Origin: Methanoculleus sp.
GTDB lineage: Archaea > Halobacteriota > Methanomicrobia > Methanomicrobiales > Methanomicrobiaceae
Length of the DNA stretch: 58,817 bases
Direction: 5' to 3'
NCBI GenBank assembly: GCA_011048835.1
Contig: DSDF01000089.1
Location: 1-58,817, forward strand
The translations under genes and the position numbers were made by a program. Below, in pieces: positions 569-19,904 of this stretch (position 1 is its first letter; each line of letters opens with the position of its first letter). The notes beneath the pieces were generated by a model. That model had not been told where the DNA came from. It searched no databases and saw only the letters and a list, made by a program, of their open reading frames with translations.

Positions 569-1416
569 GCACCACCCTTTGGTTCACGAATCGGCTTTGC
601 ATCCAGCCAGTCGTAGGCATCACGCTTGGAGAGCTTGATGTACTCATTGTACGTGTAGATCCATCCGATGAATGCCACCAGCAGGCCGAGCATCGCCGCG
701 CTGACGGAGAGGAATGCAAACGACATGACCGCAACGGCGATCATGCTCAAAAACCCGCACTCCGCCGCACACATCTGGGTCCTGTCCTGCGACTCGTTGG
801 GGCCGAGGCAGGCGTTGAACGGGTGCTGGATGGCGATACCGCCGAGCATGAAGATGACGGCAATGATGCTGCCGCCGATGAGCGAGGCGGAATAGGTCGC
901 GACCTCGATGCCGAAGAACGTGGTCGTTCCGGTGATCATGTCAATGAACGCAAACGAACCGGTTGCCATCGACGCGAATCCCAGCAGGATCAGCGCACCG
1001 ACAATGGTCAGTTCGGTCAGCTGGCGGATCATCACCGGGATGTTCATGTTCAGGACTTTGTCCGAGAGGAACCCGAGAATGACACCGAGAACCGCGGCGA
1101 TGATCACCAGGCCGATCGGGGCGGCAACGCCCAGCTTGGTTGCGAGGAGCATTGCGATGACACCCGACCCGAGCGAGATCATACCGGCCGACGGGACACC
1201 GGTTCCGATACCATAGCTGCAGAGGGTCTTGATGGAATCGGTCCCCCACCAGATTGCGAACACCGCGCCGATACCCCCGAAGAAGGAGAAGATCTGCGTC
1301 CCGGTGAGAACGTTCAGGTAGGTCAGGTAAATGGCCACGAGAGAACCGACGATGCCGATCGCCATGATCCTGTCATGCGGCACACCACCTTCTGAAACTT
1401 CAACTTTAACCGACAT
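565..1416 (-). CDS. mtrC: Tetrahydromethanopterin S-methyltransferase subunit C
   Basis: A 283-aa polytopic membrane protein with about seven or eight hydrophobic segments, starting MSVKVEVSEGGVPHDRIMAI. MtrC is one of the integral membrane subunits (with MtrD and MtrE) that form the sodium path of the methyltransferase. It lies nine bases after the mtrD stop and overlaps mtrB by four bases, so it is translated as part of the mtr message. Length and position are normal for the family. Confidence 0.93.
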   Translation of the reverse strand: MSVKVEVSEGGVPHDRIMAIGIVGSLVAIYLTYLNVLTGTQIFSFFGGIGAVFAIWWGTDSIKTLCSYGIGTGVPSAGMISLGSGVIAMLLATKLGVAAPIGLVIIAAVLGVILGFLSDKVLNMNIPVMIRQLTELTIVGALILLGFASMATGSFAFIDMITGTTTFFGIEVATYSASLIGGSIIAVIFMLGGIAIQHPFNACLGPNESQDRTQMCAAECGFLSMIAVAVMSFAFLSVSAAMLGLLVAFIGWIYTYNEYIKLSKRDAYDWLDAKPIREPKGGA

Positions 1417-1425
1417 TTTTCCACC

Positions 1426-2259
1426 TCAGAGTGCAACCACCATGATTGCCACCATTCCGCAGACAGCCGAGGCAACGGCCGACGCGATGATTGCCCGCGG
1501 GAACCGCTTGAACTTGGGGTCGTGCGGTCCTTCGATGGTACCGGTGATGTTATATGCGGTCAGCACCGCGTTGACGAGGAACATGCCCACGGCAAAGATA
1601 CCGGCCAGCGAGACTGCCACCGGCAGGATCTCCTCGAGCGGAGCGTTGTAGATCACCGGGAGCGCCGCCTCGTAGACTGCGAGCAGCTCGACGTAGATGA
1701 GCGTTCCGCCGAGACCGCCGAGCGTCCCCCCGATCACGCCTCCCACGTAGGAGATGAACGGCAGGCCGTGCCCCTCGGTTCCCTGTGATTTGTATTCAGG
1801 GAACGTGTCGCCGGTGATGGGGTCCTTGTCGACCTTCCCGGATGCGGACGGAATTCCCATGCCGAAGACGTAGATGACGTTCACCATCATACAGGTGATT
1901 GCCATCATCAGGCCGCCACCGACCGCGCCTGCGCCGAGCGCCACGGCAAAGCCGAGTTCAGCAGCCCACGCACCGCCGAAGAGACCGGCGAGACCGGCAC
2001 CGGCGGCGAGCATTGCCACACCGGTAGCAATACCGGGCGCCTGCCCCATTGCTGCCGGCGCGCCGCCCACCGGGACGAAGTGCACGCCGAACCCGATGAG
2101 GGCTCCGCCGATGATAATGCCGATGAGGGCGATAGCACCGCCCGTCGAGGCGATGAAGAACGTAATGCCGAGGGCAACGAGAAGGATCACGATGCCGATA
2201 ACCGATGCGGTCGGGTTGATCCCTTCACCGCCGGCAGCTGCTCCACCGAGTGCGCTCAT
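1426..2259 (-). CDS. mtrD: Tetrahydromethanopterin S-methyltransferase subunit D
   Basis: A 277-aa integral membrane subunit of Mtr, rich in Gly and Ala with several transmembrane stretches. I place the start at MSALGGAAAGGEG (position 2259). This ATG overlaps the mtrE stop as ATGA, whereas a longer frame would run 66 bases back into mtrE with non-family sequence. It acts in the membrane with MtrC and MtrE to couple methyl transfer to sodium export. Operon position and size are both as expected. Confidence 0.93.
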   Translation of the reverse strand: MSALGGAAAGGEGINPTASVIGIVILLVALGITFFIASTGGAIALIGIIIGGALIGFGVHFVPVGGAPAAMGQAPGIATGVAMLAAGAGLAGLFGGAWAAELGFAVALGAGAVGGGLMMAITCMMVNVIYVFGMGIPSASGKVDKDPITGDTFPEYKSQGTEGHGLPFISYVGGVIGGTLGGLGGTLIYVELLAVYEAALPVIYNAPLEEILPVAVSLAGIFAVGMFLVNAVLTAYNITGTIEGPHDPKFKRFPRAIIASAVASAVCGMVAIMVVAL

Positions 2260-3173
2260 GATGTCGCCTCCTCTGGTTCTGCTGCCGCAGCTTCGGTGTA
2301 CGGACCGAAGGTGGTGCGCGCCCACGTCTCAATAAACCGGTCGATGACCATGAAGATGAGAATCACCACGACACCGGCGATGACCGCACCCCATCCTCCT
2401 GCGAACGGCTCGAAGAGCACGGTGCGCCAGAGTTCAAAGAACACGATCAGGCCGAAACAAAGCCCTGATGCCGGACCGGCGAGCTTGGATGTAAACCAGC
2501 CGTTGTCGAGCGAACTGCGCTCACCGGCTTCCGCGTAGCGGACGATGTTGCCGGATGCGGAAATCGGTACGCCAGCGCCGAACTTCTGCTCCTGGTACTG
2601 CCGCTCCTTCCCATAGAACGGGTTTCCGGTTGCAGATCCTGCTGCACCGAGCGCGATACCCCAGACCAGGCCCAGCAGGGGCAGCGGGAAGGGGTGGCCG
2701 AGTGCGGCGACCATCAGGTAGCACATCGAAATCGTGGTGAAGATCGCCACAAATGCGTGTGCCATGGTCACGGTCGTCACCGATTTCAGGATATCGATGT
2801 AGACCGGCTGTTCAAATTTTGCGAGACTCGCCGTTCGTCCCAGGTATGCCGTCGTAGCATAGACACCCTGGACAAAGACTGCAACCGCAGCACCAACGAT
2901 GAGGGCAAGAATCGCATTCAGATTAATCGCCATGAACGCCCACGCGACGCCGGCGCCGAGTGCGCACCAGAGGCCATATGCGGGGGGTTCGCCGGATACT
3001 GCTTTGTTGAATATCCGGTGAATGTACCCCATCTGCGGAGCGAGCTGAACCTGCGAGTTCGGGTCACCCTGTGATCCGATATCAGATTCAGTATCTTCCG
3101 CTGCACCAGCCACGGTGGCAAGGGCTCCAGCTAATGCGGTAACGCCAATGCCGAGTACTAGGTTTTCAACCAT
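2256..3173 (-). CDS. mtrE: Tetrahydromethanopterin S-methyltransferase subunit E
   Basis: A 305-aa polytopic membrane protein starting MVENLVLGIGVTALAGALAT. It is the first gene of the mtrEDCBA operon. MtrE contributes to the sodium-translocating membrane core. The start has a strong Shine-Dalgarno GGAGGA eight bases upstream, and a BRE/TATA element lies about 75 bases upstream. Position as first gene, length and hydrophobic profile all fit the family. The end overlaps the mtrD start by four bases. Confidence 0.95.
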   Translation of the reverse strand: MVENLVLGIGVTALAGALATVAGAAEDTESDIGSQGDPNSQVQLAPQMGYIHRIFNKAVSGEPPAYGLWCALGAGVAWAFMAINLNAILALIVGAAVAVFVQGVYATTAYLGRTASLAKFEQPVYIDILKSVTTVTMAHAFVAIFTTISMCYLMVAALGHPFPLPLLGLVWGIALGAAGSATGNPFYGKERQYQEQKFGAGVPISASGNIVRYAEAGERSSLDNGWFTSKLAGPASGLCFGLIVFFELWRTVLFEPFAGGWGAVIAGVVVILIFMVIDRFIETWARTTFGPYTEAAAAEPEEATS

Positions 3174-3248
3174 TTAGGCATCCTCCTGCGTGCCACATGC
3201 ACAAGTAATACAAACCCTTTTTGGTTCAATTAACAGTGGGTAACGGCT

Positions 3249-3263
3249 TTATTAAAGGTTTCG
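3249..3263 (-). promoter_or_regulatory. Predicted mtr operon promoter (BRE + TATA)
   Basis: On the minus strand this reads CGAAACCTTTAATAA, close to the archaeal BRE/TATA pattern (CGAAA, two bases, then a TTTATATA-like box). A start about 25 bases downstream (near 3225) would leave a leader of roughly 50 nt before mtrE. The element sits in the AT-rich 190-base gap between mcrA and mtrE. Inferred from the motif only. Confidence 0.6.
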
Positions 3264-3343
3264 AAAAGATGGCCGTGATTTGTGGGATTTTCTGAAAAAT
3301 GCGGCAGAATTTAAGATTTACGCTACCGAGATTTGAGTTAGTG

Positions 3344-3352
3344 AAAAAAAAA
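3344..3352 (-). terminator. T-run terminator after mcrA
   Basis: Nine consecutive T on the minus strand, starting 12 bases after the mcrA stop, fit an archaeal U-run terminator for the mcr operon. The mtr operon has its own promoter further downstream, so the two operons are probably separate transcription units with possible read-through. Confidence 0.6.
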
Positions 3353-3363
3353 TTGTGTTGAGG

Positions 3364-5070
3364 TTAGCGGGCCGGGATGATGAGCGAACGCTCGCCAGCC
3401 GGGCTGAACTCGCGGATTGCACCCTTTGCGAACTCGCGGCGGGGCTCGGCGAAGTCGAACTTGAGCGAGGGGTCGGCGAAGCAGACCGCCACACGCGGGT
3501 CGTAGCAGAACGCGTCGCCGCGTCCGTAGTGGGCGCCGCCGACGATAGCGGCGTACTCGCCCTGGTGACCGACGTTCATCGCGTAGTTCGGGTAGTTCGG
3601 TCCGCGCAGTTCTCCGATCAGGCCCTCGTCAGGCCGGATGGCCAGCGAGTTTGCGGAACCGCACTGGTCCTGCAGGTCGTAGCCGAAGAAGCCGAGACGC
3701 GACCAGCCCTCCTTGTGCAGGAGCATGGAGAGGTACCATCCGTTCAGACCGGCGTTGGAGTTTCCGGTACCGATGGAACAGGTCAGACCGGATGCGGCGG
3801 CGATGACGCCTGCACGCTGGGAACCGCCAAAGTGGTCCTCCATCAGGGTCGGGAACTGCTCGTACTGCTCCATGGCGTTGAGGGTGACCTCGGTGGCGAG
3901 GTCGTTGACAACCTCCTGCGATGCCTTGACGCGGTCGCCGGGGCTCGGGTTTGCCCAGTCGACACCGTACTTGTCCTTCACGTAGTCCATACCGTAGTAG
4001 GTGTATTCGTCAAGGATGTTGTCGGTGTAGGCTGCGGTGGCATACTGGGTGAAGCCGACACCGCCGGACATGTAGGATCCGAGCCAGATCTGGTCGAAGA
4101 GCATCGTTCCGGCACCGACGACCTCGAGGGAGGCGCGGGCGGGGTCCTTCGGGTATTTCCGGTTGGCCTGGATGATATCGGAGAAGAGACCGAACTTGAT
4201 ACCACCGGGCTCGTTCGGACCGCGGGCGCGGCGAGCGGGCAGGATGGAGGCCATCTGGATGACACCGGCGTGCTTCGCGGCGTAGGACAGGTCAGCGACT
4301 GCCGCCTCTCCGGCGCACATGCGGTAGGCACCGATGTAGGACATACCGATCTGCATGGCAGACCAGCGGCTGGTGGTTCCACCGTCACAGGTCCTCGATA
4401 CAATGGTCGGGATGTGGATTGCCTGCCAGAGTCCCTTGCCGATGGCCGCCTTGAGTGAGGCGCCCTGGTCGGCGGGGAAGAGCTTGTCGATGTTGAGCAG
4501 GAACTGGGGCTCGATGTCGTCGGCGATGGCGTCGTCACCGGTAAAGACCTTGACGTAACAGTCATCGACCACACCGGGGTGGGTCTCCACCATGTGCTCC
4601 TGGACCACAGCTGCACCGGGCATGGCGTGGTTCAGGACGTGGAGGTACTCGTTGATGGTCTCGGGAGTGACCTCTTTTCCGAGGCGCTTCTGCAGGGTCT
4701 GGTGGGCGAGGTCCATGCCGACGATAACCGTCCTGCGGATGTCGTCCCAGAACTGCTGCATGGCAGAGTTGTTGACGAAGTGCAGGTCGTCGCCCTCGAC
4801 AAAGACGCCGGACTGGCTGACCTGGTAGGTCATCAGCTGGCGCTGGCCGAGCGGGATACCGCCGAGGTGGCAGCGTACGGGCTCGTACATGGAGATGCCG
4901 CGCTGCATTTCAACAGCCTTGCTTGCCTTGATGAATTCCTGCTTGCGGGGGGACTGGGCAAGCCCGCCAAAGCGATAGAAGGCGGTGTTCACTGCCTCGG
5001 GATCCTCACCCTGGAACTTCTCTTTCAGCGAGTCAAGGAACAGTTTTTGTGCTCTCTCAATTTTTGCCAT
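3364..5070 (-). CDS. mcrA: Methyl-coenzyme M reductase alpha subunit
   Basis: A 568-aa alpha subunit of methyl-coenzyme M reductase, the Ni-F430 enzyme that forms methane from methyl-CoM and coenzyme B. The diagnostic region [15 protein letters not shown] is present, covering the Gly that is usually thio-modified and the Cys that may be S-methylated, followed by [20 protein letters not shown] start at [11 protein letters not shown] (5070). GGAG lies just upstream, and the GTG nine bases earlier gives no better family match. It is the last gene of mcrBDCGA, with its ATG five bases after the mcrG stop. It is a complete and normal marker gene. Confidence 0.99.
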
Positions 5071-6964: not shown

Positions 6965-8269
6965 TCAGACGCCCTTTGCGATTTCCTGGATGGGCTTTGC
7001 GAACACGTCGATCTGTCCGAAGGTGTCCTGGTAGACCTTGGAGGTACCCTCCGGAGAGAACATCTGCGTGCCCGCATCGAGGGCGGCTGCGGCGACCACA
7101 CACGGGATTGCCACACCGGCAGCGTGCCGGGTCACGACGTGGTTGCCGTTGAACACGCCGGGGCCACCGCCACCATAGATGGAGTGGCTGAAGAACGAGA
7201 ACCCGACTGCAGTTCCCATCACACGGCCGTAGTCACAGCCGGGCAGACCGGTCTCGTGCTCGATCAGGTCGTTGAAGTAGAGCAGCGTCGAGGAGACCGC
7301 CTGGGCGAACCGACCGGCACCACAGTTGACCATGGTCGCGGCCATGGTGCCTGCGGAGGTGTAGGCGTTCCAGAGCATGGGGTCCTTGGTGTCGTAGAAC
7401 TGGAAGTATCCGCCCTTCTTGCCGGGCGCGATAACCTTGTCCTCGATGGCGCGCTCGACGAGCGACTGGACGACGGTTCCGATGGTTCCGGTTGCGCCGT
7501 TCGCTTTCACCAGGTCGTACACCAGGTTGTTGGCGTTGAGGCCCTGGTACGCGTAGGCGAGCAGCTGGGCACGCTCGAAGGGACCGATCGCGGCTCCCAT
7601 CTCGAACTCTCCTGCCTGCTCGAGAGTCGAGGAGAGTGCTGCTCCCTGCATGGCGTTCCTGTTGGTCATCATGACCACGTGGTTGACCGGGATGTTCCGG
7701 AGCGCATACCCCAGACCTTCGTTGTTCTGGGGGATGGTGAGCACGGATGCGACATTTGCGCCCTCGAGGTCCATGGTGTGCGGGTAGCCGCCCCAGACGG
7801 CCGCCTTGACCATGGATCCGTCGTAGGCGCCGACGTTGAACTGGTCGATGATCGCGTACGTGGTTGCGGACGCCACCGAGGTAATTGCTGCGTCGTAGGT
7901 CGATGCCGCTTCGATACGGGCCTTGGGGACCTCGACAAGGAGCAGCTTGCCACCGGCGAACTCCTTGATTGTGGTGTCGTCGCCTTCCTCGACCGACACC
8001 ATCTCCTTGATCTTGGCCACGATCGCGTCCTTGTTGCCCATGATGTCGAGGTCGAGCTCACGGCCGATGATCTTGCCCTTTCCGACCGATCCGGTCTTCA
8101 GGCCGTCTTCGATCTTGCCGAGCTGGACGGCAATCTGCCGCTTGCAGCTGTCGATGATCTTCTTGGTCGCAGGGTTGACGAGGGGGCTGATCTTCTCGAG
8201 CGCAACACCGCTCTTGAGGAGCTTGCCCTCATCGTCATAGAGGTCGATAGTTTCCGAATATTTTGCCAT
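6965..8269 (-). CDS. mcrB: Methyl-coenzyme M reductase beta subunit
   Basis: A 434-aa beta subunit of methyl-coenzyme M reductase and first gene of mcrBDCGA. It starts MAKYSETIDLYDDEGKLLKS and carries the typical SIYGGGGPGVFNGNHVVTRH segment near the C-terminus. A strong GGAGGA ribosome-binding site lies about eight bases before the ATG. The transcript probably begins near 8380, giving a leader of about 110 nt with inverted repeats. It is complete and of standard length. Confidence 0.98.
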   Translation of the reverse strand: MAKYSETIDLYDDEGKLLKSGVALEKISPLVNPATKKIIDSCKRQIAVQLGKIEDGLKTGSVGKGKIIGRELDLDIMGNKDAIVAKIKEMVSVEEGDDTTIKEFAGGKLLLVEVPKARIEAASTYDAAITSVASATTYAIIDQFNVGAYDGSMVKAAVWGGYPHTMDLEGANVASVLTIPQNNEGLGYALRNIPVNHVVMMTNRNAMQGAALSSTLEQAGEFEMGAAIGPFERAQLLAYAYQGLNANNLVYDLVKANGATGTIGTVVQSLVERAIEDKVIAPGKKGGYFQFYDTKDPMLWNAYTSAGTMAATMVNCGAGRFAQAVSSTLLYFNDLIEHETGLPGCDYGRVMGTAVGFSFFSHSIYGGGGPGVFNGNHVVTRHAAGVAIPCVVAAAALDAGTQMFSPEGTSKVYQDTFGQIDVFAKPIQEIAKGV

Positions 8270-8321
8270 AATTTTCCTCCTTTACTCATAGTTGCAATTC
8301 ATTGTGGTCCCTGAACGCTGT

Positions 8322-8337
8322 CATGCACATGTGCATG
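8322..8337. repeat. 16-bp perfect palindrome in the mcr leader
   Basis: CATGCACATGTGCATG is a perfect 16-bp palindrome within the predicted mcrB leader, about 50 bases before the mcrB start codon. As DNA it could bind a dimeric regulator; as RNA it could only form a short hairpin. No gene covers it. Confidence 0.7.
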
Positions 8338-8365
8338 TCGAAAATCTATGCTAGTCACTATGCAC

Positions 8366-8380
8366 GTCCCCGCTTGGGAC
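8366..8380. repeat. Short stem-loop GTCCC/GGGAC at the predicted mcr transcript start
   Basis: GTCCC and GGGAC flank a five-base loop. If transcription starts near 8380, this 5-bp stem would form at the very 5' end of the mcr message, where it could protect the transcript or affect initiation. Confidence 0.45.
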
Positions 8381-8381
8381 A

Positions 8382-8398
8382 ATTGAATAGTATTCAAT
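8382..8398. promoter_or_regulatory. 17-bp inverted repeat between mcr TATA box and start site
   Basis: ATTGAATAGTATTCAAT is a perfect inverted repeat around a central G. It lies between the predicted mcr TATA box (8403-8411) and the predicted start near 8380, the usual place for an archaeal repressor operator. A bound protein there would block RNA polymerase recruitment. Confidence 0.5.
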
Positions 8399-8402
8399 CT
8401 CG

Positions 8403-8411
8403 GTATTTAAG
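8403..8411 (-). promoter_or_regulatory. Predicted mcr operon TATA box
   Basis: The minus strand reads CTTAAATAC within GCTTAAATACCG, in the AT-rich 328-base gap between fwdC and mcrB. It is the best TATA-like element upstream of mcrB and would start a message with a leader of about 110 nt. Confidence 0.55.
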
Positions 8412-8587
8412 CATTGCCAATATTTTCCTCTATAGGGGCCCCAAAATAAAATTCAAAATGAGTGATAATCAAGTGAGAAAGTGCGTATCTGTGGGTTTAG
8501 TGAAAATGTGCTAAAAATTCACCATAAAAGTGTTACGGAATGCGTCGTATGACTGAGATTAATGAGAATGGGCGTGTGCGCCCCTGC

Positions 8588-11133: not shown

Positions 11134-12447
11134 TCACGCCCCCTTCAGTTCCCTGACGCGTGCGGTCACGCGCTCGAGGAATTCGAGATCCGTCAGCATT
11201 CCCTCGGGCGGGTCGACCACCTTGCGGCACTCGATCGGCACATTGTCCATACGGTAGGCGCAGCCGCCCGTCTCGACGCCCACAAATGCGACCGGGACGT
11301 GCAGCTTGCACACCGCCGTCGTCGGGGTGAGGTGCGGGTCGATACAGATGGACGGCAGGTCCCAGATCTTTTTCACCGAACTGTTCGGGAAGTGTGCGCC
11401 GGGGTCGCTGCCGATCACGAAGACCGCATCCACCTCGTCCCGGACCAGCAGGTCGTTGGAGGTGGTGTCGCCGGGGTTGTAGCGTGCAAAGCCCCGGGAG
11501 AGGTCGAGTGCGAACGGGAACCCGTGCAGCCATCCCCAGACCTCGCCCGAGCCGGTCACGTTGTAGTGGCCCCGCATGGGCATAATGTTCCATTTCGTGT
11601 ATTCGTTCAGGTCCCGGGTCACGCAAATGGCCTGGTCGATGTTGTGGTTCTTCGAGAGCGACTGGGTAACGCCCATCCCGAAGAAAATGATCCCGAAGCG
11701 GCCTGATTTCATGATATCGGCAACCTCGTAGATGGTTTTCTTCGGAATGCCCGCAACGGTGTCGGGGAGCCATTCGCCCTTGAACGCCACGCGCAGCGCC
11801 GTCAGGAGTTCGTAGTCGCGGCCCTGCTCGACCTGCAGGTGAATGTCCGCGGTCTTTGCGGTATCGGTGACCCTCGGGTCAACGACGACCATTTTGCGTC
11901 CCTTCGCTCCCTTCCCGGTAAAGAAGCCGCGGGGGAAGATGGAGTAGCGGGACATGTGCCGCGGGTGGGCATGCGCAGGGTTGCAACCCCAGAACACGAT
12001 GCGGTCCGCACGGTTCAGGATTTCGCCGAGCGTACACGAGGGCACGCCGACGTCCTGCACCGCAATGAGGGTCGTACCGTGGCAGACCGTGGCGGTGTTG
12101 TCCATCACGGCGCCCACCATCTCGCCGATCTCCGTGCCGATGGCCTGCGCCTCGCAGTTCGTGGAACTCCACCCGTACATCAGTGGTTTTCGTGCGGCGG
12201 CAAGCGTTGTTGCGGTATACTCCACCGCTTCATCGTAGGAGATCTCCTTCCAGCTGCCGTCTTCCTGCTTCATGCGCGGGCGGGTCACCCGGTCTTTGGC
12301 CTGGGAATGAAGGAACTTCTCGGCACCGATGGCACAGGCGTTGTACACCTCGAGGATCTTCGTGCCGTCGTCACTCACGCCCACCTCAAGGTCGTCACAG
12401 AGCGTTCCGCAGAACGGGCAGACGACGTCCGTTACAAGTTTTGCCAT
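11134..12447 (-). CDS. fwdB: Formylmethanofuran dehydrogenase subunit B (molybdopterin catalytic subunit)
   Basis: A 437-aa catalytic subunit that reduces CO2 to formate at a bis-pyranopterin tungsten or molybdenum centre. An N-terminal 4Fe-4S motif, VVCPFCGTLCDDLEV, precedes the molybdopterin fold. The metal-ligand position reads DNTATVCHGTT, and the codon is TGC, so this is the cysteine form and not a selenocysteine form. Its start shares one base with the fwdD stop (TAATG), indicating coupled translation. Size is standard. Confidence 0.97.
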   Translation of the reverse strand: MAKLVTDVVCPFCGTLCDDLEVGVSDDGTKILEVYNACAIGAEKFLHSQAKDRVTRPRMKQEDGSWKEISYDEAVEYTATTLAAARKPLMYGWSSTNCEAQAIGTEIGEMVGAVMDNTATVCHGTTLIAVQDVGVPSCTLGEILNRADRIVFWGCNPAHAHPRHMSRYSIFPRGFFTGKGAKGRKMVVVDPRVTDTAKTADIHLQVEQGRDYELLTALRVAFKGEWLPDTVAGIPKKTIYEVADIMKSGRFGIIFFGMGVTQSLSKNHNIDQAICVTRDLNEYTKWNIMPMRGHYNVTGSGEVWGWLHGFPFALDLSRGFARYNPGDTTSNDLLVRDEVDAVFVIGSDPGAHFPNSSVKKIWDLPSICIDPHLTPTTAVCKLHVPVAFVGVETGGCAYRMDNVPIECRKVVDPPEGMLTDLEFLERVTARVRELKGA

Positions 12448-12848
12448 TACAATTCACCCCGGCATGCTTTCGTAACAAGCGTCAGGGAATCCCATATGGG
12501 CTCGCCTTTCGCCTCTTCAACCTCAACGGGGGTGCCTTTGAACGTAGGCATCCCGGTGGAATACGTATTCGGATTCACCACCATGTTTGCCCATGGACCC
12601 ATGGGAATCCACCCGAGGCCCGGGTGCGGGCCCTGGGTAGCATCCACCGCTTTCACCACAACGCTCCCGTACTCGCTGGTCACACGAACGTTCGTGTTCC
12701 GGTAGACTCCAAGTTTTTTAAAGTCTTCGGGGTCCAGCTCAATAATCCCGCAGGCGGCGGTGTAGGCGGGTTTTTCCTTCCCGCCTTCCATGGACACCCC
12801 CTGCTGGATGGTGCGCCCGGTGATCAGGTTCAACTTAATTTTTGGCAC
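12447..12848 (-). CDS. fwdD: Formylmethanofuran dehydrogenase subunit D
   Basis: A 133-aa protein with the molybdopterin-dinucleotide-binding fold; in Fwd it completes the metal cofactor site with FwdB. It starts MPKIKLNLITGRTIQQGVSM, matching the family's N-terminus. It lies between mvhD and fwdB and overlaps fwdB by one base. Length is normal. Confidence 0.94.
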   Translation of the reverse strand: MPKIKLNLITGRTIQQGVSMEGGKEKPAYTAACGIIELDPEDFKKLGVYRNTNVRVTSEYGSVVVKAVDATQGPHPGLGWIPMGPWANMVVNPNTYSTGMPTFKGTPVEVEEAKGEPIWDSLTLVTKACRGEL

Positions 12849-12862
12849 CGTCTCAACTCCGG

Positions 12863-13285
12863 TTATTTCTCAAATTGTTTGAGCGGGCTCGGGCCAAGTT
12901 CTTTGACGGTCTTGACAACGTCCTCGACCACTCCTGCCCACTTGGCACCCTCTGACGCGGACACGAAGGTCATCCTGATGCGTTTGTCGTCAAATCCGAT
13001 GTTTTTGAGGATGTTCTTGACAAGGAACATGCGTTTTGCAGCCTTGTAGTTGCCCTCAAGGTAGTGGCAGTCACCGAAGTGACAACCGGAGATGAGCACG
13101 CCGTCGGCGCCGTCCTGGAACGCTTTCATGATGAAGAGCGGGTCAATACGGCCGGTGCACATCACACGGACAGTACGGATGTCGGGCGGGTACTGCATGC
13201 GGGCTCCGCCTGCGAGGTCGGCTCCTGCGTAACTGCACCAGTTACAGATGATTGCAATGATTTTCGGGTTCCACTCTTCTGCCAT
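12863..13285 (-). CDS. mvhD: F420-non-reducing hydrogenase iron-sulfur subunit D
   Basis: A 140-aa MvhD with the 2Fe-2S cysteine pattern: ICNWCSYAGADLAGGAR near the N-terminus, a central VMCTGRIDP and GCHFGDCHYLEGN. MvhD passes electrons from an electron donor enzyme to HdrA for flavin-based bifurcation. Its start overlaps the hdrA stop by one base. No mvhA or mvhG hydrogenase genes lie beside it, so the electron donor must be encoded elsewhere; known alternatives in this order are formate dehydrogenase and F420-reducing hydrogenase. Confidence 0.95.
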   Translation of the reverse strand: MAEEWNPKIIAIICNWCSYAGADLAGGARMQYPPDIRTVRVMCTGRIDPLFIMKAFQDGADGVLISGCHFGDCHYLEGNYKAAKRMFLVKNILKNIGFDDKRIRMTFVSASEGAKWAGVVEDVVKTVKELGPSPLKQFEK

Positions 13286-15297
13286 TACTGTTCACCTCCA
13301 AGGAGGAACGCATCGATCTGTGCGACGATCTGCGGGGTGGTGAAGTGCTGCATGTGAATTGCGCCGCCCGGACAGAATCCGCCGCAGGTGCCGCAGCCCT
13401 TACACTTGGCCTCGGTGACCTCCATGACCTTCCTGCCGTCCTTCTCGACCAGCGCAAGGGCCGAGTACGGGCAGAGGTTCACGCACATGCCGCAACCGGC
13501 ACACAGTTCTTCATTGCACTGCGCAAAGTAGGGCTCCAGCTCCACTTCTCCCCGGTGAATGGGGATGCTGGCTGCGGATGCCGCTCCTTCGGCCTGCGCA
13601 ACAGTGTCCGGAATATCTTTCGGACCCTGGCAGACACCGGCGAGGAATACACCGGCAGTGGTGGTCCCGCAGGGGTTGAGCTTCGGGTGCGCCTCGAGCA
13701 TCCAGCCGTCCTGCGAACAGGAGACACCGAAGAGCTTGCGCACGGCGTCCGCACCGGTAGTGGGCTGCACCGCGGAGGCGAGCACGACCATGTCGACCTC
13801 GAGGTCGATGGGACGTTGCAGGAGCGTGTCCTCGGTGAAGACGTGCAGGTTCTTGGTGACCGGGTCCTCGAGGATGTTGGCGACCCTGCCGCGGATGAAC
13901 TTTGCCCCCTCATCCTGGATACGGTAGTAGAACTCCTCGTACATCTTACCGAAGGAACGGATGTCCATGTAGAGAAGATACGGTTGTGCGCCGGGGATCT
14001 TTTCGATGATCTGGTGGGCGTGCTTGAGCGAGTACATGCAGCAAAACCGGGAACAGTAGGGCTTGCCCACGCCGGTGTTGTCACGCGAACCCGCACAGAG
14101 CACGAACGCGACCTTCTTCGGCGTCTCGCCGTCGGAGGGGCGCACCAGGTGGCCGCCGGTCGGGCCGGAGGCACAGATGAGGCGCTCGAATTCGAGACCG
14201 GTGATGACGTTCTCGTACTTCTTGTAGCCCCACTCGGTCTTGTTCTCGATGGGGAAGAGGTCGTAGCCGGTTGCGAGGATGGCGGTGCCGACCTTGACCT
14301 TGATGAGCTCGTCGACCATCTCGAGGTCGATTGCCTTCTTCTCGCCGCAGGCCTCCACGCAGAGGCCGCACTTGATGCAGGTGTTGAAGTCGACGGTGTA
14401 GAGGTTGGGCACGACCTGCGGATGGTAGATGTAGATCGCCTTGCGCGGCGCCATCTCAAACTCGAACTCGTTTCCTTTGATGACCGGACACACTTCGACA
14501 CAGTCGCCGCACCCGTTGCACCCGCCGCCGACGATGCCTCGTGCTTCTGCCTCGTCGGGGGTGAGGACGCCGCGTGCCTTTTTCCGGAGCGTGATTTCGA
14601 AGTTGCCGATATATCCCTCGACCTCCGCAACTTCGGTATAGGTCATCAGCTCGATGTTTTCATTCCTGCCCACATCGACCATCTTCGGGGTGAGGATGCA
14701 CTGCGAACAGTCGAGGGTCGGGAAGGTCTTGTCGAGCTGGGACATGCGGCCGCCGATCGTCGGCGAGCGCTCGATGAGGTAGGTCTTGATGCCTGCATTG
14801 CCCAGGTCGAGGGCCGCCTGCATACCGGCGACACCGCCTCCGACCACCATGGCGGCATGCTCCACCGGGACGCTCTTGGGGATGAGGTCCTCGAGGAGCG
14901 AGGCCTTGGCAACAGCAATCCGCACGGCATCCTTGGCCTTTTCGGTCGCTCCCTCGCGGTCATGCATGTGGACCCACGAGTTCTGCTCACGGATATTTGC
15001 CATCTCGAACCGGAACGGGTTCAGTCCGCCCACTTTCGTGGCCATCCTGAAGGTCGGTTCGTGGAGACGGGGGGAGCATGCAGCGACGACCGTACCGGTA
15101 AGATCGTGCTCCTTGATGGCGTCGGTGATCATCGTCTGTCCCGGCGTGGAGCAGACATACTGGTAGTCATCAGCATGCACAACGTTGGGCAGCGTCCTTG
15201 CGTATTCCTTAACGGCCTCTACATCGATAGAGCCTGCAATATTGGTACCGCAGTGGCACACAAACACGCCGATTCTTGCTTCTTTCTTCTCTGCCAT
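13285..15297 (-). CDS. hdrA: Heterodisulfide reductase subunit A (electron-bifurcating flavoprotein)
   Basis: A 670-aa HdrA that splits electron pairs between CoM-S-S-CoB (through HdrBC) and ferredoxin. The order is an N-terminal GVFVCHCGTNIAG region, an FAD-binding VVGGGVAGMQAALDLG at about 151-166, the DCSQCILTPKM Cys motif near 197-207, two internal 4Fe-4S motifs (CNGCGDCVEVCP, CIKCGLCVEACG) and two more near the C-terminus (about 599-645). A GAGGTG site lies five bases before the ATG. It sits between hdrB and mvhD in the fused fwd/hdr operon. Length is standard. Confidence 0.97.
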   Translation of the reverse strand: MAEKKEARIGVFVCHCGTNIAGSIDVEAVKEYARTLPNVVHADDYQYVCSTPGQTMITDAIKEHDLTGTVVAACSPRLHEPTFRMATKVGGLNPFRFEMANIREQNSWVHMHDREGATEKAKDAVRIAVAKASLLEDLIPKSVPVEHAAMVVGGGVAGMQAALDLGNAGIKTYLIERSPTIGGRMSQLDKTFPTLDCSQCILTPKMVDVGRNENIELMTYTEVAEVEGYIGNFEITLRKKARGVLTPDEAEARGIVGGGCNGCGDCVEVCPVIKGNEFEFEMAPRKAIYIYHPQVVPNLYTVDFNTCIKCGLCVEACGEKKAIDLEMVDELIKVKVGTAILATGYDLFPIENKTEWGYKKYENVITGLEFERLICASGPTGGHLVRPSDGETPKKVAFVLCAGSRDNTGVGKPYCSRFCCMYSLKHAHQIIEKIPGAQPYLLYMDIRSFGKMYEEFYYRIQDEGAKFIRGRVANILEDPVTKNLHVFTEDTLLQRPIDLEVDMVVLASAVQPTTGADAVRKLFGVSCSQDGWMLEAHPKLNPCGTTTAGVFLAGVCQGPKDIPDTVAQAEGAASAASIPIHRGEVELEPYFAQCNEELCAGCGMCVNLCPYSALALVEKDGRKVMEVTEAKCKGCGTCGGFCPGGAIHMQHFTTPQIVAQIDAFLLGGEQ

Positions 15298-15308
15298 TTT
15301 TGCACCTC

Positions 15309-16199
15309 TTACAGGATCTTCTCCAGGAACGGGGTAACGTCAACGGCATGCAGATCGAGCGCCAGTTCGTCCGGGCTCATGCCCTGCGCAAGACCGAGCA
15401 GCTCGTTGTAGTGCAGCACGGGCAGGCCGTATTTGATCCCGAACTTCTCCTCGATCTCGATCTGACCGCGGTCGTACTGCAGCTGGCAGAACGGACAGAC
15501 CTCGGTCAGGGCGTCTGCACCGACTTCCTGCAGGTTGATCATCTTTTCGTTGGTGATGTCGAGCGAGTGCTCGAGGTCGAACCCGCGGACACCGCCGCCG
15601 GCACCGCAGCACTGCATCTTGTTCCGGTACTGCACGGGCTCGGCACCGAGCGCCGCGACGAGCTCCTCGATCCACATGGGGTGGTCGGTGTCGCCGAAGT
15701 GGCGCTCTTTGCGCGGCTTCATCAGGTGGCAGCCGTAGTGCACCGCGATCTTGGTGTCGCTGAGCGGGCGGGTGACCGACTCGCGGATCTTGTCCACACC
15801 GCAGATCTTGGGATCGTAGTAGAGCTCGGCAAGGTGCCATACGTCGATCGAGCCCTTGTACTCCATATCGATCTCTTTGAGCACTTCGTTGACGCCGTCA
15901 CGCAGCTCGTCGTTGTGCTTGAGGATGTGGTTGACCTCATAGATGGACTTGTAGCACCCGTTGCAGATGAGAGCGATGTCCCGGTCCATCTGCTCGGCGA
16001 GCACCACGTTGCGTGCCGCCATGGCGTACCAGATGTTTAAGTCGATGGACCCGAACGCACCCGGGGCAGGACAGCAGCTGGCACCCTCAAGCGGAAGGAG
16101 TTTGATGCCCACTTTTTCGCTTGTCTTGATGGATGCAGCCTCACAGCCGGGATAGCGGTTCGGTGCGATGCATCCGAGGAAAAATGCATATTCGTGCAT
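15309..16199 (-). CDS. hdrB: Heterodisulfide reductase subunit B
   Basis: A 296-aa catalytic subunit carrying the two CCG-type domains whose noncubane 4Fe-4S clusters cleave the CoM-CoB heterodisulfide. Visible motifs are GASCCPAPG with CNGCYKS, and MQCCGAGGGVRG with CPFCQLQ. I start at MHEYAFFLGCIAPNRYPG (16199) because the GGTGA ribosome-binding site fits this ATG better than the GTG nine bases upstream, and because family members begin MKYAFFLGC. It follows hdrC almost directly. Confidence 0.96.
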   Translation of the reverse strand: MHEYAFFLGCIAPNRYPGCEAASIKTSEKVGIKLLPLEGASCCPAPGAFGSIDLNIWYAMAARNVVLAEQMDRDIALICNGCYKSIYEVNHILKHNDELRDGVNEVLKEIDMEYKGSIDVWHLAELYYDPKICGVDKIRESVTRPLSDTKIAVHYGCHLMKPRKERHFGDTDHPMWIEELVAALGAEPVQYRNKMQCCGAGGGVRGFDLEHSLDITNEKMINLQEVGADALTEVCPFCQLQYDRGQIEIEEKFGIKYGLPVLHYNELLGLAQGMSPDELALDLHAVDVTPFLEKIL

Positions 16200-16204
16200 T
16201 GTAT

Positions 16205-16786
16205 TCACTCACCTTCCGAAAGGATCTTGTCCGCACGGTCCTTGAGGCCATAGTGGTCGATGATTGCCTTGATCCCCTCGATGTACTCGGGGAACCCGTG
16301 GGTCGTCGGGGGCTCTGCTTCGAGTCCCAGCTTCACGCGTGCCGCCCGGTTGACATCGTTGTTGGGTACACCGTGGCCGGTCGTGTAGATCGCCTGCACG
16401 GTCTTGAGGAAGTTCCTCGGCACGATATCCCTGCGTGCCGCAAGGTTGCGCATTGCCATGATAACGTCGGTCGGTGCGATATCACGCGGACAGCGGTCTG
16501 TACACGAATAACAGGTGGTACAGAGCCAGAGGTCCGGGTCGGTCAGTGCCTCATCCTCGAGTCCGAGCACCGCACGCCGCATGAACAGCCGGATGCGGTA
16601 GGAACTGCGGGGCGCGGAGGGGCACGAGCCGGTGCAGGTCCCGCACTGGTAGCACATGTGGGCGATGGTGCGGCCGATCTTCTCCACCTCTTTGGTGAAG
16701 TCGCGGTTTGTGTCGTCGCTGTAGTAATACCGGTCCTTGAGTTTCGCCTCAAGCGACGGGTTTCCGTAATTCTTTTCCATTGCCAT
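16205..16786 (-). CDS. hdrC: Heterodisulfide reductase subunit C
   Basis: A 193-aa iron-sulfur subunit that passes electrons from HdrA to HdrB. Two 4Fe-4S motifs are seen, CYQCGTCTGSCP and CTTCYSCTDRCP. The start MAMEKNYGNPSLEAK has a GAGGTG site five bases upstream. It stands between fwdF and hdrB. Length and motif spacing are normal for cytosolic HdrC. Confidence 0.96.
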   Translation of the reverse strand: MAMEKNYGNPSLEAKLKDRYYYSDDTNRDFTKEVEKIGRTIAHMCYQCGTCTGSCPSAPRSSYRIRLFMRRAVLGLEDEALTDPDLWLCTTCYSCTDRCPRDIAPTDVIMAMRNLAARRDIVPRNFLKTVQAIYTTGHGVPNNDVNRAARVKLGLEAEPPTTHGFPEYIEGIKAIIDHYGLKDRADKILSEGE

Positions 16787-16795
16787 TTCAACACC

Positions 16796-17962
16796 TCACG
16801 CCTTTTCCTCAACCACTTTGAGTTCGACCTCGCCAGGCGGGACCGCTTCCTTGACCCGGGACGTTCTCGGGGTGCAGAGTTTCTCTTTGATCCGGTTGAA
16901 CAGATCCGTCTCTTTGCCCTTGATGCGGATACCGGTCCGCTTCAGGGTGATGATATCCTCACCCGGGCATGCATTCACGCATGCGCCGCAGAGGATGCAG
17001 AAGTCCTTGTTGACAGCAATCTTCTCCTCGATGGCGCCCTTCATCTCCCCGGCAGGGAGAGGCGACGGGAGATAGATCGCATTCGCGGGGCAGATCTCGA
17101 CACAGGTCGAACAACCTGCAGGACATTTTTCGGCGTCGAATTCGATATCGCCCTCAAAAATCTTCTCAACAGTGATTGCCTCGGTCGGGCAGTTGATCGC
17201 ACACCAGCGGCAGGTGCAGCAGTTCTCGTCCATGATCTCGACGCTGCCGTCGAGTTTCGACGAGGTTACTTCGCGCTCAACGGTGATTGCATCCTCGGGG
17301 CATGCCTCGACGCAGACCTGACAGGCGTCACAGAGTTTCTCGTCCCAGACGACTTCGCCCACGACATTTCCGGACTCCGCCGAAAAGGGCTTGCGGTTGA
17401 CTTCGATTGCAGGACACAGGGCGCCGCAGATGCCGCAGTAGGTACACTTCTCGTCATCGACGACAAACTTCGTCGTGGCGGTCAGGGCTTCCTGCCTCTG
17501 CTTTCCTGCTTCGTCGGTCCCCTCGAACTCGGCGACATTCCTGTCGATCGCGTCGCGGGGGCAGACGTCTTCACAGATGGTACAGCGGACGCATTTTTCG
17601 TCATCCACCTTGGTTACCATATCATACATGGGGAAGCCTTCCTTCTCATGAATGGGAAGGCGCTCTTCACCGTCGATCTTGAGCGTGAGCGCGTTGAAGG
17701 GGCACATGATGACACAGACACCACAGTAGGAACATTTCACCTCGTCAATGTTCACCGGTTCTGCATAATCGATGGCTCCCCTGCGTACGGCTCCCACTGC
17801 TCCAATGGTGATCGCATCTTCAGGGCAGGCTTCCGCGCAAATGCCACATCCAGTACAGGTCTCTGAATTCAGAATCAGATTGTTGGTGTTCTGGAGGAGC
17901 TTCTGCTCCATAATGACATTGACGCCTTCGCGTCTTTTGGAGAATTTTGGGAACAATGCCAT
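16796..17962 (-). CDS. fwdF: Polyferredoxin, formylmethanofuran dehydrogenase subunit F
   Basis: A 388-aa polyferredoxin with eight 4Fe-4S motifs: CTGCGICAEACP, CSYCGVCVIMCP, CVRCTICEDVCP, CTYCGICGALCP, CDACQVCVEACP, CCTCRWCAINCP, a spaced variant CPAGCSTCVEICP, and CILCGACVNACP. Eight motifs match FwdF, which wires Fwd subunits to the electron donor. MvhB polyferredoxin is the alternative, but adjacency to fwdG and location in a fwd operon favour FwdF. A clear C-terminal tail of about 50 residues lacks cysteines. Confidence 0.9.
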   Translation of the reverse strand: MALFPKFSKRREGVNVIMEQKLLQNTNNLILNSETCTGCGICAEACPEDAITIGAVGAVRRGAIDYAEPVNIDEVKCSYCGVCVIMCPFNALTLKIDGEERLPIHEKEGFPMYDMVTKVDDEKCVRCTICEDVCPRDAIDRNVAEFEGTDEAGKQRQEALTATTKFVVDDEKCTYCGICGALCPAIEVNRKPFSAESGNVVGEVVWDEKLCDACQVCVEACPEDAITVEREVTSSKLDGSVEIMDENCCTCRWCAINCPTEAITVEKIFEGDIEFDAEKCPAGCSTCVEICPANAIYLPSPLPAGEMKGAIEEKIAVNKDFCILCGACVNACPGEDIITLKRTGIRIKGKETDLFNRIKEKLCTPRTSRVKEAVPPGEVELKVVEEKA

Positions 17963-17987
17963 AGTTTAACCTCACTCCACTACTACT

Positions 17988-18251
17988 TCAGGCAAGGACC
18001 TTCGTCCTCGTCTCCCACGGTCCGGCGAGCCGTATCACATCCATCGGGCACGCCTCGACACAAACGCCGCAACCGGCGCAAAGCTCTGAATTTACGTCAA
18101 GAACAATTGCTTTGCCGTTCTTGACCCGGTAGATCTTCTCTTTGGTGACGGGATCTACCGTATAGAGCTCCAGTGCATCTACGGGGCATGCTACCACACA
18201 TGCGTTACAACCGGTACACCGTTCCATGTTAATATGCAATGCAAATGCCAT
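17988..18251 (-). CDS. fwdG: Ferredoxin-type subunit of formylmethanofuran dehydrogenase (FwdG-like)
   Basis: An 87-aa ferredoxin with two 4Fe-4S motifs, CTGCNACVVACP and CAGCGVCVEACP, and first gene of the fwd/hdr operon. I start at MAFALHINMERCTG (18251). An upstream in-frame start would add 23 residues rich in Phe and Arg that do not look like the family. FwdG links FwdF to FwdB. It could also serve as a free ferredoxin for HdrA. Confidence 0.85.
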   Translation of the reverse strand: MAFALHINMERCTGCNACVVACPVDALELYTVDPVTKEKIYRVKNGKAIVLDVNSELCAGCGVCVEACPMDVIRLAGPWETRTKVLA

Positions 18252-18275
18252 GGTTTCACGCACCAGTTCGAATTT

Positions 18276-18293
18276 ATCGATTAGAAATCGATT
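18276..18293. repeat. Direct repeat ATCGATT x2, 11-bp spacing, upstream of fwdG
   Basis: ATCGATT occurs at 18276-18282 and 18287-18293, one helical turn apart, and each contains the palindrome ATCGAT. The pair lies 25-42 bases before the fwdG start, close to where the nearer TATA-like box (18316-18325) would start transcription. A role as operator is possible. Confidence 0.45.
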
Positions 18294-18315
18294 GAAAAAG
18301 AGTTGTTGAAGAGAA

Positions 18316-18325
18316 TACATAAACC
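18316..18325 (-). promoter_or_regulatory. Proximal TATA-like box of the fwd/hdr operon
   Basis: The minus strand reads GGTTTATGTA, which would start transcription near 18292 and leave a leader of about 40 nt before fwdG. It is weaker than the distal box at 18463-18473; both may be used. Confidence 0.4.
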
Positions 18326-18363
18326 TTCTGAAGTTAGGGAACCTTTTTTATGCGATGAAACCG

Positions 18364-18374
18364 GCGATAATCGC
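18364..18374. repeat. 11-bp palindrome in the fwd leader
   Basis: GCGATAATCGC is a perfect inverted repeat with one central base, located between the two candidate promoters of the fwd/hdr operon. It may be a regulator-binding site or an RNA hairpin in the longer transcript. Confidence 0.4.
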
Positions 18375-18462
18375 TGCAAAACGTTGATTTTAGACGGTTG
18401 TTAATGGTTGTGTGTTGATAAATCAGCCATTTCCCCCTGCGGAAAAAATCGAATTGGCAAAT

Positions 18463-18473
18463 GGTTATATAGG
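18463..18473 (-). promoter_or_regulatory. Distal, strong TATA box of the fwd/hdr operon
   Basis: The minus strand reads CCTATATAACC, a near-consensus archaeal TATA box. Transcription from near 18440 would give a leader of about 190 nt before fwdG, long enough for RNA-level control. No upstream ORF of credible quality fills that leader. Confidence 0.5.
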
Positions 18474-18505
18474 AAACAGCGGGGACGCAAACCTTCTGCC
18501 CCCCC

Positions 18506-18512
18506 AAAAAAA
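18506..18512 (-). terminator. T7 run downstream of the small minus-strand ORF
   Basis: Seven T on the minus strand begin about ten bases after the stop of the 18521-18832 ORF, after a second T-rich tract near its last codons. This is the pattern seen after fwdC and mcrA and suggests that a minus-strand transcript ends here, upstream of the fwd promoter. Confidence 0.4.
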
Positions 18513-18520
18513 TCCATTTT

Positions 18521-18832
18521 TTATTCTTGATCGGCATATAGATCTGCCGGAGATATTTCCTCCCTCATGCATTTCGCGGGACGTATGAACAGGTACGCTC
18601 TCTGCACCATGCATCTGCACCATGGCAACCGGACACACCCCGCAGGGAACCCACCCATAATCCTCCGGAATGCCGTGGTTTCGCCGCACACCACGGGCAA
18701 CCGGCTCTCGTCCACGCCCTGCACCCGATCCTCTGCCGTGAATCGCGGCCGGCACCACCGGCACCGGATGCTGCCCTCCGCACCACCACCCTGCAAAAAA
18801 CGTGAACCGCCGGGGAGGGGATCCGGCTGCAT
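18521..18832 (-). CDS. Possible small cysteine-rich protein (unrecognised)
   Basis: A 103-aa reading frame, MQPDPLPGGSRFLQGG onward, in the roughly 600-base gap between fwdG and ftr. The central part has G or C at most third codon positions, as in neighbouring genes, and carries clustered cysteines: CRWC, a single VVCG, GCVRLPWCRC and AKCM. This could be a zinc-binding protein. A T7 run follows the stop. Against it, I recognise no family, the start is uncertain, and overlapping frames are also open. I treat it as a candidate only. Confidence 0.3.
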   Translation of the reverse strand: MQPDPLPGGSRFLQGGGAEGSIRCRWCRPRFTAEDRVQGVDESRLPVVCGETTAFRRIMGGFPAGCVRLPWCRCMVQRAYLFIRPAKCMREEISPADLYADQE

Positions 18833-18938
18833 GGAAGCGGAGAGCCGACCGAACCCTTCCCGCAGGGTTCGGGAGACCGCAAAAAAGAAACATTATTCTG
18901 ATATTCCTTCATGACATACGTACCACGAGGTATACTGT

Positions 18939-19826
18939 ATGGAATTGAATGGAGTTACCATCGACGACACCTATGCAGAAGCATTTCCCACCTGGATTGC
19001 CCGCGTGATCATCACCGCGGTCACCGAAGAATGGGCGTACAAAGCAGCGGTCGAGGCAACAGGGTTCGCCACCTCGGCAATCGGGTGCCCCTGTGAAGCG
19101 GGCATCGAGACCTTCCTCTCGGGCGACGAGACCCCTGACTGCCGGCCTGGCTGCGCCATCCTCATCTGCGCAAGCGGCAAGAAGAAACTCAAAGAGCAGC
19201 TCATCGAGCGGATCGGCGAGTGCATCCTGACCGCACCCACCACCGCGGTCTTCGACGGCCTTCCCGACGCCGAAGAGAGGATCCCGGTCAAGCTCCACTT
19301 CTTCGGCGACGGCTACGAGTACCAGGCCGAAGTGGGCGGACGCAGCGTCTGGAAGATCCCCATCATGAACGGCGAGTTCGTCGGTGAAGAGGAGTTCGGC
19401 GCAGTCAAGGGCGTTGCCGGCGGCAATTTCTTTGTCATGGGCGAAAACCAGATGGCCGCCCTCATGGGGGCACAGGCGGCGGTGGATGCCATCAACGGCG
19501 TCTGCGGTGTCATCACGTCGTTCCCCGGCGGCATCGTGGCAAGCGGGTCGAAGGTGGGCAGCGCGAAGTACAAGTTCATGACGGCGAGCACCAACGAGAA
19601 GTACTGCCCCACCCTCCGCGAGCAGGTCGAGGGAAGCGAGGTGCCCGAGGGTGTTGCGGCCGTCTACGAGATCGTCATCGATGGCATCGACGAAGCGTCG
19701 GTTGCCGAGGCGATGGCGGAGGGCATCAGGGCGGCCACCACGGTGCCCGGCGTGGTCTACATCACCGCGGGGAACTTCGGCGGCAACCTCGGCCCCTTCA
19801 AGATCAACCTCTCCGACATCCTCTAA
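18939..19826 (+). CDS. ftr: Formylmethanofuran--tetrahydromethanopterin N-formyltransferase
   Basis: A 295-aa Ftr, the second enzyme of CO2 reduction, which moves the formyl group from formylmethanofuran to tetrahydromethanopterin in the cytoplasm. It starts MELNGVTIDDTYAEAFPTWIARVIITA, typical of the family, and ends NLGPFKINLSDIL. A GAGGT site precedes the ATG by seven bases. It faces away from the fwd operon across the 18.3-18.9 kb gap and is followed by a T6 run, so it appears to be monocistronic. Confidence 0.97.
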   Translation: MELNGVTIDDTYAEAFPTWIARVIITAVTEEWAYKAAVEATGFATSAIGCPCEAGIETFLSGDETPDCRPGCAILICASGKKKLKEQLIERIGECILTAPTTAVFDGLPDAEERIPVKLHFFGDGYEYQAEVGGRSVWKIPIMNGEFVGEEEFGAVKGVAGGNFFVMGENQMAALMGAQAAVDAINGVCGVITSFPGGIVASGSKVGSAKYKFMTASTNEKYCPTLREQVEGSEVPEGVAAVYEIVIDGIDEASVAEAMAEGIRAATTVPGVVYITAGNFGGNLGPFKINLSDIL

Positions 19827-19831
19827 CCCTC

Positions 19832-19837
19832 TTTTTT
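19832..19837 (+). terminator. T6 terminator after ftr
   Basis: Six T lie just after the ftr stop, before the TATA box of the next operon. This is a short U-run terminator by archaeal standards. Confidence 0.45.
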
Positions 19838-19850
19838 CACCGGACCGATC

Positions 19851-19861
19851 AGTATAAATAC
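19851..19861 (+). promoter_or_regulatory. Promoter of the marker-11/radical SAM/TPP/aks operon
   Basis: AGTATAAATAC is a near-consensus TATA box. Predicted start is near 19885, giving a leader of about 20 nt that contains the GGTGA ribosome-binding site of the first gene. All nine following genes overlap, so this is the likely single promoter of the operon. Confidence 0.6.
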
Positions 19862-19904
19862 CTTTGTTGCCGACAATCCTGTTAACGATTATTTCGGTGA
19901 CAAA

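Follow-up and report, generated by a model that had tools for sequence, protein, structure and literature searches.

The inverted repeats around the mcr promoter of the window (the whole 58.8-kb stretch of DNA analysed here) probably point to a structured RNA, conserved as the 5' leader of the mcr operon, that would protect the mRNA, bind a regulator, or both. On the basis of the comparisons below, we estimate the probability of this reading at about 0.6. Two of the three repeats, a 5-bp stem and a 16-bp palindrome, appear to be parts of the RNA structure; the third, a 17-bp repeat, appears to be a local sequence quirk. The initial annotation had made conservation in relatives the touchstone of its proposal: it was found for the stem and the palindrome and did not extend beyond two neighbouring genera for the 17-bp repeat. 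Conservation makes the 5-bp stem the most significant repeat.

The mcr locus and its predicted promoter

The window belongs to a 2.0-Mb genome of the order Methanomicrobiales; judged by McrB, the closest named relatives are records labelled Methanomicrobiaceae and Euryarchaeota MAGs. Its mcr genes are arranged in the order mcrBDCGA and are followed by mtrE (NCBIfam equivalogs TIGR03257, 03260, 03264, 03259, 03256 and 01113). The upstream neighbour is a formylmethanofuran dehydrogenase cluster; a terminator-like hairpin, GGGCGCACACGCCC, lies just 3' of fwdC/fmdC (8570-8583, minus strand). A second MCR operon, on another contig of the same genome, is composed of B, G and A genes only (mrtBGA, without D and C), and its McrB homologue is 80 per cent identical. 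The leader is present at both operons. The positions of the features are reported in table 1.

Table 1. Features of the mcr leader region and of the second MCR operon (window coordinates unless stated otherwise).
Feature	Position	Strand	Basis or remarks
TATA-box-like CTTAAATA, mcr promoter	8405..8412	minus	sequence; TTATA/TTAAA spacing to stem
17-bp palindrome ATTGAATA-C-TATTCAAT, between TATA box and predicted start	8382..8398		predicted untranscribed
mcr leader RNA, predicted +1 (G8380) to mcrB	8270..8380	minus	covariance model R1 match 8267-8382
P1 hairpin GUCCC-AAGCG-GGGAC at predicted +1	8366..8380	minus	invariant in 24 family mcr leaders
Sequence-conserved segment GUGCAUAGUGAC	8354..8365	minus	order consensus GUGCARUAGUGAC; first part is the P2 5' arm in most genera
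P3 variable hairpin, window form CAUGCA-CAUG-UGCAUG	8322..8337	minus	covariation in alignment A2
Conserved UUCAG after P3	8311..8315	minus	(nearly) invariant in A2
Place of P2 3' arm, AUUGCAACUAUG	8287..8298	minus	pairing weak, possibly shifted in the window's genus
Shine-Dalgarno GGAGG	8276..8280	minus	predicted mostly unpaired (0.72)
mcrB, first gene of mcrBDCGA	6965..8269	minus	NCBIfam equivalogs; ATG at 8269
Second MCR operon (mrtBGA)	893-4701 of a 12000-20000 stretch on another contig		leader matches R1, E 7e-6

In the 83 of 100 leaders with a recognised TATA motif, 27-31 nt separate it from the first G of the P1 stem; the other 17 had no recognised motif. In Methanosarcina, the distance from the TATA box to the transcription start is about 23 bp (PMC11409679). 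On the basis of these two distances, the 5' end of the transcript is most likely the first G of P1.

The three repeats were all recovered on the minus strand: the perfect 17-bp inverted repeat between the TATA box and the predicted start (8398-8382), the 5-bp stem at that start (GTCCC/GGGAC, 8380-8376 and 8370-8366, loop AAGCG) and the perfect 16-bp palindrome in the leader (CATGCACATGTGCATG, 8337-8322). For comparison with chance, palindromes were counted when perfect, with arms of at least 8 and a spacer of 0-1. Among 4000 dinucleotide shuffles of the region (110 bp), 23 had at least one such palindrome and no shuffle had two. The whole window contains six, four within genes; shuffles of the whole window had 0-5. 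A single palindrome is thus unremarkable, but the pair in one leader stands out. Neither long palindrome is kept as sequence among the leaders of McrB homologues.

Conservation of the predicted 5'-terminal hairpin P1

In GTDB genomes, what these leaders conserve is a short stem together with the stretch that follows it, TGTCCC(loop)GGGGACGTGCARTAGTGAC; this element is common to about 70 mcr and mrt loci whose leaders were compared. The five P1 pairs are kept in 96.9 per cent of cells across 108 distinct leaders, with loops of 2-8 nt, and the arms are identical (GUCCC/GGGAC) in 79 of the 108. Most changes lead to G-U pairs (GUCUC/GGGAC, GUUCC/GGGAC, GUCCC/GGGGC and GUCCC/GGGAU); one pair is compensated, to U-A, in GUCUC/GAGAC. 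GUCUC/GGGAC and GUCUC/GAGAC occur in mrt copies and GUUCC/GGGAC occurs in another genus; 15 Methanoculleus-type leaders lack the fifth pair. The first five nucleotides are predicted to be paired at a probability above 0.9 in most leaders. The earlier suggestion of an mRNA cap formed by a stem at the start gains support from the position of P1 at the predicted +1, at the TATA spacing given above, and from its conservation in the order. P1 was also considered as a DNA dyad, a candidate that was rejected because the spacing of its half-sites varies from 2 to 8 nt.

The sequence directly behind P1 is also conserved: GUGCARUAG is kept over 23 genera. Of 232 genomes in the order, 115 contain the exact pattern GTCCCN{2,8}GGACGTGCARTAG, and none contains its reversed control. 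There is one match per mcr operon, and most genomes of a Methanoculleus-like genus have two, one at each of their operons.

The variable hairpin P3

Evidence for P3 comes from a family alignment of 24 leaders (A2). RNAalifold, run unguided on this alignment, predicts P1 and P3, with double changes at five pairs. When the structure is specified, double changes occur at six of the seven P3 pairs, in 23 cells, and the covariation score is 0.433, a value reached by none of 500 shuffles (0.172 in shuffled alignments). P3 cells are paired in 84 per cent of cases, compared with at most 46 per cent for slid controls, over which the structure has some advantage through having been drawn on A2 itself. 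The hairpin reads CAUGC-UAUCU-GCAUG in a congener, and GACAGC-AUCU-GCUGUC or GGAAAC-GUUUUU-GUUUCC in other genera. P3 is not evident in the Methanoculleus mcr leaders or in Methanospirillum.

Since pairing is kept while the sequence changes, the 16-bp palindrome is better read as RNA than as a protein-binding DNA palindrome, and the alignment points to it being one sequence state of a conserved base-paired hairpin. The structure of P1 and P3 is well supported.

The predicted closing stem P2

In most genera, P2 is predicted to join the 5' end of the leader to a segment that lies 22-40 nt upstream of the start codon. Its arms GUGCAGU/AUUGCAC hardly vary within the A2 family outside the window's genus, which has a weakened stem; P2 is poorly formed there and in several other genera. 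Other versions are UGUACGA/UCGUACA in Methanospirillum and GUGCAAUA/UAUUGUAC in Methanoregula. The formal covariation counts were restricted to A2 because MAFFT misaligned the 3' arm order-wide.

Support for P2 from exchange between genera is moderate. Swapping the 3' regions among genera worsened the pairing in an earlier test (p = 0.005), and permutation of the -40 to -22 region gave p = 0.0004, the best of 18 combinations tried. The Methanospirillum arms pair at -9.1 kcal/mol with each other, against -4 to -5 kcal/mol with the 3' regions of other arm classes. An own-versus-all comparison over a wide 3' region was uninformative, most 5' arms being identical.

We also observed a possible pairing between the stretch that follows the 5' arm of P2 and the region preceding the Shine-Dalgarno sequence (window 8270-8380; p = 0.008, one of 18 tests). 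Such a pairing would form a pseudoknot with P2.

Distribution of the leader

A covariance model (R1) was built from 24 sequences including the window, whose own match (97.6 bits, E 2e-21) is thus a match by construction. With R1, the leader is recognised in 23 of 28 genera and in 101 of the 135 order genomes that are at least 90 per cent complete. The R1 matches extend to families outside the model-building set, with E-values down to 1e-12, and these matches are the independent support. The absence of matches in genera such as Methanocorpusculum reflects the model itself, P1 there preceding an inserted domain, and the stricter filters used.

Comparison by hand with mcrB coordinates places the pattern matches about 90-125 nt upstream of mcrB and the end of the R1 matches at its start codon. 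All matches of either kind that were compared in this way sit at mcrB; a few could not be compared. No other genes sharing the leader were identified, by pattern or by R1, among the order genomes searched. In an even sample of the phylum, exact-pattern matches are confined to Methanomicrobiales. Outside the order there is no exact match, and R1 gives only matches at E 0.05-0.8, none of them convincing; two of these, in genomes with a listed mcrB, are not at mcrB. On these searches, the leader is specific to Methanomicrobiales and attached to the mcr/mrt operons.

Several variants were observed. Some McrB copies of the Methanoregula/Methanolinea type (six loci) are without the leader and have a common upstream block, ATAGTTACTGCATTGCTATAAAGTTTATACTATTAATAAT, instead. 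In Methanocorpusculum (four leaders), a hairpin domain of about 75 nt is inserted behind P1. In Methanoculleus and Methanospirillum, CAG or CAGYGA triplets are repeated in the unpaired part, CAG being enriched about 3-fold over mononucleotide shuffles and 1.5-fold over dinucleotide shuffles. A protein binding CAG at multiple sites was considered and rejected: CAG is not a defining feature, and the window itself has two.

Single-sequence folding of 42 leaders is only slightly more stable than that of shuffled sequences (mean z -0.9). Structured-looking mcrB leaders also occur in other lineages of Halobacteriota outside the order; several have z of -2 to -4, values biased by the choice of 5' ends by eye, and a stem that joins the predicted 5' region to a segment just before the ribosome-binding site.

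Rfam 15 gives no match with E < 1 on the window's leader or on 20 leaders of the order, and our (not exhaustive) search of open-access full-text literature yielded no account of a leader RNA at mcr in Methanomicrobiales. A cis-acting leader RNA at mcr therefore appears to be absent from Rfam 15, for the leaders scanned, and to have no prior description in that literature.

Possible functions of the leader

We propose that the mRNA begins inside the GC-rich hairpin P1, which is followed directly by GUGCARUAGUGAC. The first part of this segment would pair shortly before mcrB to form P2, enclosing P3, so that P1 and P2 would be contiguous and P1 perhaps stacked on P2. P1 would shield the 5' end from 5'-end-dependent decay, allowing high, steady MCR synthesis. 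In the window's family the Shine-Dalgarno sequence is unpaired with a probability of 0.64-1.0; being mostly open in this clade, it would make the resting state on. The predicted fold would suit a message with a shielded 5' end and unhindered translation. P1 and GUGCARUAGUGAC are conserved beyond the needs of pairing, which suggests that a trans factor recognising the leader may also read the element.

The leader might be a pure mRNA stabiliser, its 5'-terminal hairpin blocking 5'-dependent nucleases with no ligand or regulator involved; we consider this possible, if doubtful. The hairpin at the predicted +1, with its firmly paired first nucleotides, and the open Shine-Dalgarno sequence of the window's clade are as expected of such an element, and MCR is in large excess and constitutive in Methanosarcina acetivorans (PMC11267899). 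A clamp needs pairing only, yet the P1 arms are identical in most leaders and GUGCARUAG persists over the 23 genera; furthermore, P1 of the Methanoculleus mcr leaders has only four pairs.

The converse, a regulated leader acting as a riboswitch or as a protein-binding site (for example in feedback by an MCR assembly factor) and altering translation or decay, is likewise tentative. AGUGAC and UUCAG are conserved though unpaired or semi-paired, the leader is attached to mcr/mrt operons only, and it occurs at both isoenzyme operons despite the absence of D and C from mrtBGA; the possible second pairing next to P2 would also suit a switch. Neither a ligand nor a demonstrated alternative fold accompanies these features, however, and the accessibility of the Shine-Dalgarno sequence ranges from 0.01 to 1.0 between genera. 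Transcription of mcr is reported as constitutive in M. acetivorans (PMC11267899), which offers no hint of a regulator. A more ambitious version, which we regard as rather unlikely as a whole, is an mcr-dedicated regulatory RNA of Methanomicrobiales that would sense MCR supply through an assembly factor, a cofactor or the energy state, and would adjust how the mRNAs of both MCR isoenzyme operons are translated or degraded.

It is improbable that the repeats are DNA operators bound by transcription factors. The 17-bp palindrome lies between the TATA box and the predicted start, where the initial annotation likened it to a repressor operator. Its arms pair fully (8/8) in the window and in one congener, and at 7/8 in the second congener and in the next genus; these are four genomes from two genera. 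In the other leaders pairing drops to the background of 3-6 of 8, and only the right half is seen again, as a start-proximal motif. The genome has no other such site within two mismatches; at three mismatches there are five places, compared with two for the reversed control. The operator claim is thus unsupported, the near-perfect repeat being limited to two neighbouring genera and having no further genomic site. A transcription-factor dyad with conserved half-sites and fixed spacing was rejected on this limited range and on the variable spacing of P1; that spacing of 2-8 nt, and the change of P3 sequence with pairing kept, are unlike a dimer operator. As a lineage-specific operator, the 17-bp palindrome is possible but unsupported.

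That the repeats are chance palindromes without function is very improbable: perfect palindromes as long as these are present singly at other places in the window, chiefly within genes, and chance is plausible for the 17-bp repeat, but it leaves P1 conservation and P3 covariation unexplained and is refuted for these two.

Significance and comparison with known leaders

Biological methane formation ends with the reaction catalysed by MCR. A leader RNA in most genera of a major methanogen order would offer a mutable handle on the setting of methane production, and could serve as a marker for mcr transcripts in metatranscriptomes. The control of MCR has barely been studied outside the Methanothermobacter isoenzymes (PMC11267899), and only a handful of archaeal cis-regulatory RNAs have been confirmed or even predicted (PMC7247131).

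The Methanosarcina mcrB 5' UTR, used in expression vectors (PMC11409679, PMC3942078), is also the leader of an orthologous operon and is predicted to be structured; its sequence is unrelated, however, and that lineage yields no convincing R1 match. The long 5' UTRs that stabilise the methanol-methyltransferase mRNAs mtaA and mtaC, as cited in PMC5378194, are likewise structured 5' UTRs of methanogenesis mRNAs in a methanogen, but belong to other genes and another order.

Some bacterial mRNAs, of the ompA type, carry stabilising hairpins at their 5' termini. The mcr leader resembles them in the predicted position of its hairpin at the very 5' end and in the open Shine-Dalgarno sequence of the window's clade; it differs in being strongly conserved in primary sequence as well, and in having P2 and P3. 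The archaeal ribosomal-protein leader RNAs (for example the S15 leader of Methanomicrobia and the eL15 leader; PMC7247131) serve ribosomal-protein operons and often resemble rRNA sites, whereas the mcr leader serves mcr/mrt. Like it, they are order- or class-restricted cis leaders that adjoin the genes they serve and are recognised by covariation.
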